DNA from: Nitrosomonadales bacterium
GTDB lineage: Bacteria > Pseudomonadota > Gammaproteobacteria > Burkholderiales > Gallionellaceae
Direction: 5' to 3'
Assembly: GCA_016223025.1 (NCBI GenBank)
Contig: JACRPU010000096.1
Span: 1-32,835 of the forward strand
Length of the DNA stretch: 32,835 nucleotides
A program made the position numbers and the translations under genes. A model generated the notes under the pieces. It was not told the origin of the DNA, searched no databases, and saw only the letters and a program-made list of their open reading frames with translations. Positions 10,719-13,826 of this stretch are shown piece after piece; the first letter of the stretch is position 1, and each line of letters starts with the position of its first letter.

Positions 10719-10729
10719 TTCGATTAACC

Positions 10730-10765
10730 CCCTCTCCCGCTGGCAGGAGAAGGTTAGGGAGAGGG
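10730..10765. repeat. Inverted repeat CCCTCTCCC/GGGAGAGGG upstream of thrC
   Basis: CCCTCTCCC (10730-10738) pairs with GGGAGAGGG (10757-10765) over an 18-base loop, just upstream of the thrC start. It resembles the hairpin at 294-314, so it is probably a dispersed REP-like repeat. It lies in the thrC leader on the minus strand and could affect expression. Confidence 0.55.
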
Positions 10766-10888
10766 TAGATTTTCCGCACTTTTACCAGGCTTAAGCGGTA
10801 CGACGCAAGAGTCCGTCACGACGGCAGCCTTGCGGCGGCAAATGTAAGGGTAAGCACGGTGATTTCAACGCGAATGAGGGCATAGCCG

Positions 10889-11368
10889 TCAACAGCAACC
10901 ATGTTCAGGGCAAAGCTGCCGCACACTCACGCCTAAATCAGCAACAAAATCAGCTTGCCTGTGCCAGCCACTATCCAAAGCATTTACCACAGTTGCTCCT
11001 GCAACCATAGCCGCTACGAGAAACTTTCTATCATTTTTATCTACTGAATTCTGTGGCAGTTCGTTAAAGCCGCGAGCCTCGTCAGCAATCGGTGTAATGG
11101 GTACGAGCCGAATCTTCTTGCCCAGGTACATATGGTCATGGAGGTACTTGAAAAACATATCTCCCACGCCGGGCTGCCCTTTGTAGTGCAAGTGGCTGCT
11201 GTACTCGGTAAAGATTAGCTCCTGCTCATCAAGAACAATATGAGTGCGTTTTACTGGTGAGACCAATTCTTCAAGAAACACTATGCACGCATATTGGCAA
11301 GCCAGGCCGGCATGGGTATTTCGCCCATTGGCCGAAATGGCCACATTAGTATCCACGACAACATTCAT
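10889..11368 (-). CDS. PIN-domain nuclease partner of the DUF3696 ATPase
   Basis: A 159-residue protein of PIN-like fold. The first strand MNVVVDTNVAI carries Asp6. An acidic residue in LDEQELIFTEY, Asp in VDKNDRKFL and Asp in NALDSGW could complete the metal-binding acidic cluster of a ribonuclease. It is longer and more divergent than typical VapC, and no antitoxin gene precedes it. Instead its ATG overlaps the stop codon of the upstream ATPase gene (ATGA), so the two are translated together. The likely role is an effector RNase controlled by the ATPase. That is inference; a canonical VapC is less likely given the partner. Confidence 0.7.
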   Translation of the reverse strand: MNVVVDTNVAISANGRNTHAGLACQYACIVFLEELVSPVKRTHIVLDEQELIFTEYSSHLHYKGQPGVGDMFFKYLHDHMYLGKKIRLVPITPIADEARGFNELPQNSVDKNDRKFLVAAMVAGATVVNALDSGWHRQADFVADLGVSVRQLCPEHGCC

Positions 11369-12738
11369 CGGTCGGCAGCCTCCATCTTTCTCCTCAAAAT
11401 GTTTTTTCTTGTTTCGGCAATCTCGGTCATTTCATCGCCAAAAAACTCTGGCGGCCAATTCAATATTTCACCGAACATATCCAGATCGAGATCAACGAGC
11501 TTCGATTCTCCTCCAACGCTGTCGCAGAAATACAGTTTGATATTCTCGGACTCAAATATTTCTTCTGCCACGCGGCGCTGGAAGCGCCGTAGCATATGCT
11601 CGCTGTGGCTCTCTACAATCACCTGCAAATTTCTGACTTTCGCCACGGTAAGAATTACATCTGCCAAACCACTTTGCACCGACGGATGTAAATGAATTTC
11701 CGGTTGCTCCATGATAATGGTGCTACCTTCCGGAACATAGTAGAGCAAAACCAAGGCGGGCAACACTTGAGATACGCCAAAACCAACATCAGTCAACGAA
11801 GCTGATGGACTTTGGGCATCACGCTTGACTACGGCACGATAAAGGTTCGCGCCATTACCAATTTCCTCAATCTTGAATTCGTGAATTAGCTTCAGTTCTT
11901 TCAGCCAGGATGCGATCATTTCTTGAAAGGGCTTGTAACGTGTCCTTCCACCGTGGTTACGTTCTTCATTACGTGCGGTGGCGGATAGCATAGCCTCAAT
12001 TGTTCGCTCACCGCGCAGACCGACATCCAATGGGCTGGTGCCTGACCAAGGATATTCACGCTTGGGGTACTCGCGCAAGGGGCCTAGATAGTAAATCGAG
12101 TTCATCATTGACTCATATTCAGCTCCAAACAAGCCCAGAAATTCTGCATTTTGGTAATAGGTTATCGCCTGATCTGGAAATAAATGAGTCTTAATCGGCC
12201 CCGGAAGTGCCCACGCCCGCTGCTTGTTGCGCACAAAGCGGAAGTTAGACCCATCCGGGCATTCCGCATTTAATTGAAATTCTGTCCCCCCCTCCTTCTT
12301 CGGTGATATGGAAAAATGAAAACCACCAAATTGATATTCAAGGAAGTCCGAAATTAGCGTTGGCCCTCGCAGATGTGCCTTCGTTTTTACGGTAAGTATT
12401 GAATCAGAAGCCAGCGCCTCAGTTCTCTTTTTGGTTGGGTCAAAGATGCTGGCTTTCTGGTGCAAAGTCCATTCTATTTTCCATTTGAGGCCTATATCCA
12501 CCTTGTGTCCATGAATCACATCCCTGTAGCCACCCAAGTTAACTAGCTGACCAGGGCCACCAAAATCCAAAACCAATCCACGATCTGTTGCATTCTTGGT
12601 TTGCTTCAACAGCAACAAGAATTGCAGCAGACTGCTTTTACCAGAGCTATTAGTGCCGAACAGCCCTGTAACTTGACCGAGCTTGATGTCGAGTTTTTTC
12701 CAAGACTTGAAATTTTCTACATAGAGCTTATCGAGCAT
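11365..12738 (-). CDS. DUF3696-containing ABC/OLD-like AAA ATPase
   Basis: A 457-residue ATPase of the RecF/SMC/OLD-like class. The Walker A motif GTNSSGKSS lies at residues 28-36. A signature-like LTDVGFGVSQVLP, the Walker B segment STIIMEQPEIHLHP and the H-loop region VIVESHSEHMLRRFQRR lie in the C-terminal third. The end (ESKLVDLDLDMFGEILNWP, then EFFGDEMTEI) is characteristic of DUF3696. No TOPRIM nuclease domain is present, unlike true OLD proteins. The ATG at 12738 has a GAGG-type site. Base composition is clearly lower in GC than hom and thrC, consistent with transfer. ATPases of this kind often pair with nucleases in phage defence; here the partner is the overlapping PIN gene. Confidence 0.82.
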   Translation of the reverse strand: MLDKLYVENFKSWKKLDIKLGQVTGLFGTNSSGKSSLLQFLLLLKQTKNATDRGLVLDFGGPGQLVNLGGYRDVIHGHKVDIGLKWKIEWTLHQKASIFDPTKKRTEALASDSILTVKTKAHLRGPTLISDFLEYQFGGFHFSISPKKEGGTEFQLNAECPDGSNFRFVRNKQRAWALPGPIKTHLFPDQAITYYQNAEFLGLFGAEYESMMNSIYYLGPLREYPKREYPWSGTSPLDVGLRGERTIEAMLSATARNEERNHGGRTRYKPFQEMIASWLKELKLIHEFKIEEIGNGANLYRAVVKRDAQSPSASLTDVGFGVSQVLPALVLLYYVPEGSTIIMEQPEIHLHPSVQSGLADVILTVAKVRNLQVIVESHSEHMLRRFQRRVAEEIFESENIKLYFCDSVGGESKLVDLDLDMFGEILNWPPEFFGDEMTEIAETRKNILRRKMEAADR

Positions 12739-12769
12739 GACACACCTCGCACGTCAAACATATCGGCGC

Positions 12770-12775
12770 ATTATA
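12770..12775 (-). promoter_or_regulatory. Possible -10 box for the ATPase-PIN operon
   Basis: On the minus strand this reads TATAAT, about 32 bases upstream of the ATPase start codon. No good -35 hexamer is seen at the expected spacing. No gene is visible in the rest of 12739-12974. Confidence 0.3.
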
Positions 12776-12974
12776 ACCCTTCCGATGATTGCTTCGTTTC
12801 GATAGTGAAGATTGAGATTGGCAGCTTTCTGGCAATGAAATCACACATTCAAATATCGCCTATGTATCGGGAACCGCCCTTCACCTTTGCCAATTGCCCG
12901 ATTGAATGACGGAACAGTCAAGGCAGCAAACGCAGCTCGCCAATGCCCATCGTCCACGCCCCTACGCCATCGCC

Positions 12975-13370
12975 CTACCCAACCCAATTCTCGACCTTCA
13001 ATCCCGGCACTCGCTTGAGCTCCGCCACGTTGCTGGTCACGAGAATGAGTTTCCCGGCAAGCGCGTGGGCGGCAATCCACAGATCGTTGTTGCCTATGAG
13101 CTTGCCGCTGGTTTGCAGTTGCCGGCGGATTTTTCCATAGTGCACAGAGGCGGCTGCGTCGAGCGGCAGCACGGGAATCAGTGCGGTCAGGTGTTCCAGA
13201 ATTTGCCGTGTTTCCTTGGGCTTTGAACTCTTTTCCGCGCCGAAGCAGAGTTCGCCGTAAGTGACCGCGGACACGGCGGCCTTGCCGGGCGGCAGTTTGG
13301 AGAAGCGCGCCAGCACTTCGGCGGGGTGATGGTTCTTGATGTAAATACAGAGTTGGTGCGAGCAGGTGGC
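12975..13370 (-). pseudogene. vapC-like PIN toxin remnant with damaged 5' end
   Basis: From about 13356 down to 12975 the frame encodes a typical VapC: CIYIKNHHPAEVLARFSKLP, AVSAVTYGELCFGAEKS, NNDLWIAAHALA and LVTSNVAELKRVPGLKVENW. The N-terminal catalytic strand, expected as LLDTN, is broken. The bases spell CTGCTCG-CACCAAC, where two single-base gains are needed to restore L-L-D-T-N and join it to the rest. No start codon sits at the expected place. The apparent N-terminal extension to 13508 is the antitoxin gene read in one of its frames. The toxin is therefore probably inactive, or the sequence has errors here. Confidence 0.72.
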
Positions 13371-13380
13371 GCGGCGCGGC

Positions 13381-13596
13381 CTATAGCCCTGCTCGTTCTT
13401 GCAGCAGGCTGTCCGCACGCGCTCCGCCATGAAATCAGCGGGCAGTGAAGCCAGCAGGTGGAAAGCTTGTTTCAGTCGATTGGGCTTTTTTACGCAGCAC
13501 CAGCTCATCGTCGCGGCGGAAGATTTCCACCTCGTCGGTATCGAACTGGAATTCCGCCGGAATTCTCACCGCTTGCGAATTACCGCTCAGTTTGTT
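13381..13596 (-). pseudogene. vapB-like antitoxin remnant, N-terminally truncated and frameshifted
   Basis: Read on the minus strand, one frame gives a VapB swapped-hairpin domain, LSGNSQAVRIPAEF, then DTDEVEIFRRDDELVLRKK. The frame then changes at a run of six A (plus-strand T at 13486-13491) and continues as PNRLKQAFHLLASLPADFMA. A second shift is needed to reach DSLLQERAGL and the TAG at 13381. The usual first five to ten residues and the start codon are missing: an in-frame stop lies just upstream, next to repetitive DNA. At least two indels plus a 5' truncation indicate decay. Confidence 0.7.
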
Positions 13597-13689
13597 GGGT
13601 TACACCCGCAAGGGGCAGGCCGTGGTTGAAGGGGCTTCCGTCCCAACAACACACGCACCGCCGCAAGCGGCTAATCCACGTTGTTTGTT

Positions 13690-13826
13690 TAACCCAAATA
13701 ATCCATTAGGTGGAATAGCTCAGAACCGCCTCTAACTCCCCCTTGTCAGGGGGAGGACTGAACCGCCCATCCCCTGACAAGGGGAGGTTGGGAGGGGTTT
13801 GTGGCCTAATGGACAATCTGGGTTTA
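13690..13826. repeat. Long imperfect inverted repeat element downstream of hom
   Basis: The outer arms TAACCC...CCATTAGG (13690-13710) pair with CCTAATGG...GGGTTTA (13805-13826). Inside, CCCCCTTGTCAGGGGGAGG opposes CCCCTGACAAGGGGAGG. The whole is about 135 bp with arms of nearly 60 bases, like a small non-autonomous element or large REP. The right arm contains the hom stop codon, so the repeat abuts or supplies the gene end. It could act as a transcription barrier after hom. Confidence 0.65.

Follow-up and report, generated by a model that had tools for sequence, protein, structure and literature searches.

An ATPase-PIN gene pair between hom and thrC matches the candidate defence system HEC-03, and most relatives outside its clade carry an added RNA ligase gene

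HEC stands for Hma-embedded candidate, and HEC-03 is the PADLOC candidate system closest to the gene pair described here. Several HECs, HEC-06 by name, showed activity according to a 2026 genome survey of archaeal immunity, and HEC-03 is not mentioned in the portion of that paper where HEC activity is treated (PMC12988326). HEC-03 is among the subtypes listed for rumen genomes in an extract of another paper (PMC13356809). No description of its mechanism was found in open-licence PubMed Central papers. A comparable arrangement is that of PARIS, in which a tRNase is held by an ABC ATPase and set free by a phage protein, as an extract of PMC12409363 describes. PIN catalytic residues were needed in two newly tested defence systems, according to an extract of PMC13092281.

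The window analysed here is the whole of a 32,835-nucleotide stretch of DNA from a Nitrosomonadales bacterium (contig JACRPU010000096.1). The features that matter for our argument are these:

10719-13823, no strand: insertion of ~3.1 kb between hom and thrC, carrying the pair and a VapBC remnant
10889-11368, minus strand: gene for a predicted 159-aa PIN-domain protein (HEC-03A) whose start shares ATGA with the ATPase stop
11365-12738, minus strand: gene for an SMC/Rad50-head-like ABC ATPase with a DUF3696 C-terminus (HEC-03B), 457 aa
12975-13600, minus strand: VapBC remnant inside the insertion, made up of a VapC-like ORF and, in another frame, a VapB-like stretch recognized by eye

Both open reading frames of the pair at 10889-12738 are intact and, as the original prediction said, overlap at ATGA. 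The ATPase matches PADLOC HEC-03B at E=1.5e-236 over residues 1-455 (model length 458), and the PIN protein matches HEC-03A at E=1.5e-71 over residues 1-158 (PADLOC-DB 2.0.0), its sole PADLOC match at E<=1. The two genes with these full-length matches are adjacent on one strand, as would be expected of HEC-03. Judged by these matches, the window pair is a two-gene instance of HEC-03, from which we found no difference. The original prediction knew of no named system with this exact pair. The full-length match of both proteins rules out the pair as an unnamed system. A match to a named system was among the findings that the original prediction had set down as refuting it; this one bears on the pair's novelty and not on its function. 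We regard the pair as probably serving in defence against viruses, and as one that PADLOC already has among its candidates. The window pair itself is a known candidate; what is new here is the set of three-gene relatives that differ from HEC-03 by an added RNA ligase. PADLOC 2.0.0 has no model for this ligase: when 17 of them were scanned the sole match was of one protein to a methyltransferase model, at E=0.026.

The pair resembles PARIS in joining an AAA_15-type ATPase to a separate nuclease, and AriA matches the window ATPase at 1.3e-28. Its effector, however, is a PIN protein rather than the Toprim/DUF4435 protein AriB, with no such Pfam match at E<=1. Septu (PtuA/PtuB) and the retron PtuAB share an SMC/OLD-like ATPase, PtuA aligning at Z ~18-19, but there the effector is the HNH protein PtuB and the window pair has no HNH match at E<=1. 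Nsn also places a partner gene after a DUF3696 ATPase, and NsnB matches the window ATPase at 2.8e-60, but NsnC is ~250-320 aa long and the window PIN protein (159 aa) has no NsnC match at E<=1. VapBC has a PIN-fold effector, and VapC structures are the top matches of the window PIN model, but no small antitoxin gene overlaps the window PIN gene. The overlapping gene encodes the large ATPase, which is not antitoxin-like, so the predicted lack of an antitoxin partner holds and a VapBC-like toxin-antitoxin pair is ruled out.

The ATPase has Pfam matches to AAA_15 (4.9e-25), AAA_21 and DUF3696 (28.6 bits, cut-off 22). Aligned with its homologues, it keeps the Walker A residues G28, N30, S31, G33, K34 and S36 in at least 90% of 39 sequences, and the Walker B residues E344, P346 and E347 and the H-loop H378 in all 39. 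The intact Walker A, Walker B, H-loop and DUF3696 end first read from the window are confirmed by this alignment and by Pfam. The best structural matches of its AlphaFold2 model (pLDDT 89.6) are SMC and Rad50 heads at Z ~20-22, with a maximum of 21.9, and PtuA is matched as given above. It is these structural rows that speak for a DNA-directed system, in which an SMC/Rad50-like ATPase would sense DNA ends and the PIN protein would cut DNA, as in Mre11-Rad50 or Septu. We consider this quite unlikely, since the recurrent partner of the pair in relatives belongs to the Pfam RNA_ligase family or is annotated so, and since PARIS, which is RNA-directed, also uses an ABC ATPase (extract of PMC12409363).

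Other DUF3696 ATPases have varied partners. Eight genes downstream of them were tested; NsnC models are matched by six, in one case weakly (3.2e-11), and the other two, each ~316 aa, had no PADLOC model match at 1e-10. This variety leads us to suggest that the DUF3696 ATPase looks like a common gatekeeper with exchangeable effectors. Five loci (L126-L130) have DUF3696 ATPases of ~520-550 aa followed by a gene with an FVDPHFDPDP stretch. That gene is ~316 aa where complete (L126, L128, L129) and is cut short in L127 and L130; the two tested from these loci gave no PADLOC match at 1e-10.

The Pfam matches of the PIN protein are below threshold (PIN_3 at E=0.036, 15.3 bits against a cut-off of 27; PIN at 14.6 against 23.6), and a sequence search of solved structures found no PIN, the best rows being unrelated enzymes at E=0.21 and 0.19. 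Its AlphaFold2 model, made with 39 homologues, has a mean pLDDT of 93.1 and a pTM of 0.88. The top structural match is VapC21 (Z 9.6, rmsd 3.3, 121 aligned), and VapC toxins, FitB, SMG6 and PRORP match across the whole chain at Z 7 to 9.6, a range in which values under 8 are common by the comparison tool's own warning. Most of the best rows are VapC and other PIN nucleases; RohQ, a cyclodehydratase, and a partner protein of Cas9 occur among them too. Foldseek gave weak matches, the best at 3.3e-3 to an RNase P of the PRORP kind and none of 1004 at <=0.001. Residues D6, N8, D47, E55, D110, D113, K115 and W135 are invariant in all 39 PIN sequences, with 37 D and two E at position 132. The PIN superfamily has three to four conserved acids, and D6, D47, E55, D110 and D113 are the candidate active-site acids here. 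Membership of the PIN superfamily is confidently predicted from the modelled fold and these residues, with Pfam scores below the cut-off. The original call of a divergent PIN protein with four acidic positions stands, and the structure prediction does give the fold it expected.

Two smaller features of this protein may be mentioned. Cysteines C24, C28 and C153 each occur in 32 of the 39 PIN proteins and are absent only from seven divergent rows; they are a possible metal site or structural pair. The tail after residue 153 is 12-26 residues long outside the window's clade and 5-11 inside it.

A scan of genome contigs gave 15 loci with titles naming Beta- and Gammaproteobacteria. The HEC-03A model was found in 15 of 398 genomes of a phylum sample and 12 of 399 of an order sample, a patchy distribution; with three genomes shared by both samples and the window's own set aside, 23 others remain. 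Every one of the 39 PIN proteins has a HEC-03A match at E<=0.01. In each of the 38 other loci the gene immediately upstream of the PIN gene on the same strand is that of the ATPase, including loci whose PIN match is as weak as ~E=1e-5 (in L040 the ATPase is split into two ORFs), and this is the conserved adjacency on which the original prediction depended. Compared with three near relatives, the window's ATPase gene has a dN/dS of 0.06-0.09 and its PIN gene one of 0.09-0.16, rough ratios since some dS values are near 1 or above. These values indicate that both genes are under purifying selection and rule out a decayed insert. Together with the kept gene order they place the pair beyond chance. 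The two proteins also diverge in step: their pairwise distances correlate at r=0.94 (38 rows, window included), a value inflated by shared ancestry, and the useful part is the contrast with r=0.39 for the ATPase against the ligase (17 rows).

Outside the window's clade the pair is usually followed by a third gene. By profile and tblastn searches, an ATPase-PIN-RNA ligase order was found in 18 of 21 such loci (L044-L050, L052, L053, L055-L061, L063 and L064), the ligase coming directly after the PIN gene. The ligase of L062 is cut off by a contig end, and none was found in L051 or L054. RNA_ligase is the commonest Pfam family among the neighbours of the relatives, at least 9 of 123, which undercounts the family because further ligases were displaced by other ORFs in picking. 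The ligase is ~228 aa long, a size at which it may depend on a partner for activity. With starts partly set from the alignment it stands between a 25-base overlap and a 5-base gap after the PIN gene in 16 of 17 measured loci, and at 87 bases in the other. K45-x-D47-G48, E105, E183 and R198-x-K200 are invariant in all 17 aligned ligases, and we take these residues to be the ligase motifs. Plasmids of Azotobacter, Rhodococcus, Aeromonas and Tistrella have it in public annotation as "RNA ligase family protein"; pAcX50e of Azotobacter chroococcum (L164) is a plasmid with such a three-gene operon. In the window's clade no ligase was seen in the available sequence of 18 loci; of these L015 is little informative, as its sequence extends just 121 bases past the PIN gene.

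A ligase profile, with up to seven candidates scored per genome, matched 17 of the 398 phylum genomes. Ten matches have E<1e-78, are nearly full length and lie beside a PIN gene, in 10 of the 15 pair-bearing genomes; those with no strong match are the window's own, G196, G016, G350 and G077. The remaining seven ligase genomes, G196 included, have weaker, partial or longer ligases. G003 counts against exclusivity, with a partial ligase match (E=1.2e-53) and no ATPase or PIN gene in the 3.4 kb of sequence covered there, and besides it there are six genomes with weak or different ligases. Ligases of at least 46% identity are on nine plasmid records, which are nine of the twelve with a PIN relative; NZ_AP022111 has a ligase match in two places. 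Distant ligase relatives (25-30%) are found in six records from very large phages, two of which are the same phage. A search for a ligase that might act in trans for the window's clade gave no match in 15 of 17 genomes (those of all loci but L013). The match in G196 is the weaker, longer ligase, and that in G771 belongs to its own second ATPase-PIN-ligase operon. Genome G771 (L103, L010) has both the two-gene form and the ligase-bearing operon.

We found no PIN and AAA_15 operon, and no PIN and RNA ligase operon, described in the open-licence PubMed Central literature; none appears in the extracts of PMC9122126, PMC7824862, PMC9503650, PMC12409363, PMC3506569 or PMC3710099. No open-licence PubMed Central paper was found on DUF3696 with a PIN domain and phage, or on DUF3696 with defense. 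The main text of DefensePredictor has PIN systems and contains neither RNA ligase nor DUF3696, the terms HEC, RNA ligase and PIN are all absent from PMC12629846, and GAPS6 with PIN returned only unrelated papers among the matches listed.

The trees bear on how the ligase came to be there. In an ATPase tree the window's clade, 18 rows with no ligase, makes up a single starred branch, and the rows of three-gene loci are placed in other clades; the outgroup was other DUF3696 ATPases, whose long branches call for caution. The ligase tree disagrees, since the ligases of the divergent clade and of one middle clade mix. Between these two clades ligase identity is 57%, the same as within them, and PIN and ATPase identities are 25% and 32%. 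The ligase was therefore swapped or gained more than once. From the tree conflict and the low ATPase-ligase correlation we conclude that the ATPase-PIN pair is the core that is inherited, and that the ligase is a cassette which has repeatedly been gained or swapped. An ancestral ligase later lost in the window's clade is allowed by the ATPase tree, and we dropped this idea on account of the mixing in the ligase tree.

It seems to us reasonably likely that the pair is an ATPase-gated RNase for phage defence, acting through a complex, a trigger, RNA cutting and growth arrest. The ATPase would bind the PIN protein and keep it inactive, and would sense a phage-caused change. Once triggered, with ATP binding or hydrolysis, it would allow the PIN protein to cut RNA, most likely of the class of tRNA or another translation RNA. 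Cutting would stop phage growth by arresting or killing the cell. By analogy with PARIS the ATPase is the likely gatekeeper and the PIN protein the effector, and RNA is the likely substrate because an RNA ligase gene adjoins the PIN gene in 18 of 21 loci outside the window's clade. The interpretation first offered, an ATPase sensor that holds or triggers a PIN RNase, is partly supported: the resemblance to ATPase-plus-nuclease systems, the adjacency and the PIN fold stand, but the pair already bears a name.

Cleavage by PIN enzymes yields 5'-phosphate and 3'-OH ends, and ligases of this class can join such ends directly, with no need of end healing. PrrC and other metal-independent RNases leave cyclic-phosphate ends that need end repair (extracts of PMC3506569 and PMC9503650), and phages carry RNA ligases that undo host RNA cleavage (extracts of PMC7824862 and PMC3506569). 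A ligase partner predicts that the PIN protein cuts RNA to ligase-sealable ends. Where the ligase is present, the best reading is an RNase whose action would be reversible; resealing would blunt accidental firing or allow recovery once the threat has passed. An immune operon of the host that brings its own ligase would reverse the phage-repair logic, and would suggest reversible, dormancy-like immunity rather than suicide. We propose tentatively, a little short of calling it probable, that HEC-03 stands at the ligase-less end of a broader immune family with its own RNA repair, in which an exchangeable ligase cassette reseals the RNA cut by the PIN protein. If this is true, the window's clade is the irreversible version.

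A point against a role in defence is that the window copy has housekeeping genes, hom and thrC, on either side. Between the end of the hom ORF (13824) and the start of the thrC ORF (10718) lie 3105 bases. A search of 40 genomes of the family found Hom in 37. Among the 29 other loci thrC is visible in 26, with a hom-thrC gap of <=240 bases in 23 and of 399-874 bases in three, and hom abuts thrC in the two relatives whose Hom is closest to that of the window (94% and 92%). Judged by this comparison, the ATPase-PIN pair was inserted between the two genes. Short palindromic CTCCC/GGGAG-rich sequences occur at both insertion ends (10719-10760 and 13730-13800). The VapC-like ORF of the same insertion (12975-13508) lacks the first PIN motif, since its match begins at position 19 of 120 of the PIN model, and the upstream VapBC remnant is a separate, broken unit.

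Flanks of the window pair gave no match in the other 38 loci (blastn, 1e-10), and the pair occupies different chromosomal sites among relatives. In five loci from Methylovulum or Methylococcales (L009, L010, L011, L016 and L017) it lies after what we take by eye to be ccmC/ccmE-like genes and before ccmF-like ones, the ccmF-like gene following directly or after one or two ORFs. The pair is again inside a housekeeping operon there, in the operon's direction. In L013 and L014 it lies between a ~965-aa gene, presumably SNF2-helicase-like as judged by eye, and a ~1050-aa gene. The setting of the window copy and of the five loci like it would suit a role in general stress, in which the PIN protein trims host RNA and the ligase rejoins it, and a PIN protein with an RNA ligase could make a repair pair. 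We think such RNA processing apart from phage defence very unlikely, given the patchy distribution and plasmid copies, the window's clade in which no ligase was seen, and the BREX and methylase neighbours of some loci.

The module is mobile. A PIN relative is on 12 plasmid records, six of them from Aeromonas, three from Acinetobacter and one from Rhodococcus (Actinomycetota); six of the 12 are predicted to be conjugative and four mobilizable. For phage carriage there was no match in the phage collection, and in viral_contigs five stretches matched a pattern, none encoding a relative. Carriage on conjugative or mobilizable plasmids and at different chromosomal sites would fit an addiction module, with the ATPase as antitoxin for a PIN toxin that is kept since its loss kills, and with no specific response to phage. 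PIN is, moreover, one of the two predominant RNase toxin superfamilies (extract of PMC3710099). Addiction nevertheless seems unlikely to us, as the PIN protein is partnered by an ATPase of 457 aa in which the Walker and H-loop motifs are conserved, and not by a small DNA-binding antitoxin, and as many relatives add a ligase.

The enrichment in defence islands that the original prediction proposed as a check on the gated-RNase reading is suggestive only. We compared 123 of the 124 proteins nearest 23 loci, picked mechanically as ORFs, with 105 control proteins from 17 stretches of the same genomes. At E<=1e-20 there were 130 PADLOC families among the neighbours and 32 among the controls, but the test is no more than suggestive because PADLOC families overlap, and the commonest family accounts for just 6 of 123 neighbours against 1 of 105 controls. 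Within the window, the proteins scanned for a defence setting were the pair and the VapC-like ORF. Of nine large neighbours chosen by size, six were without a match at 1e-80; PglX was found at one locus, and Ppl with BrxHI at a second. These three, along with an N-6 DNA methylase, are neighbours of relatives outside the window's clade. On an Acinetobacter soli plasmid (L167), where the DUF3696 ATPase is annotated as two ORFs, an HNH endonuclease gene follows the PIN gene in the ligase's place, with an N-6 DNA methylase nearby.
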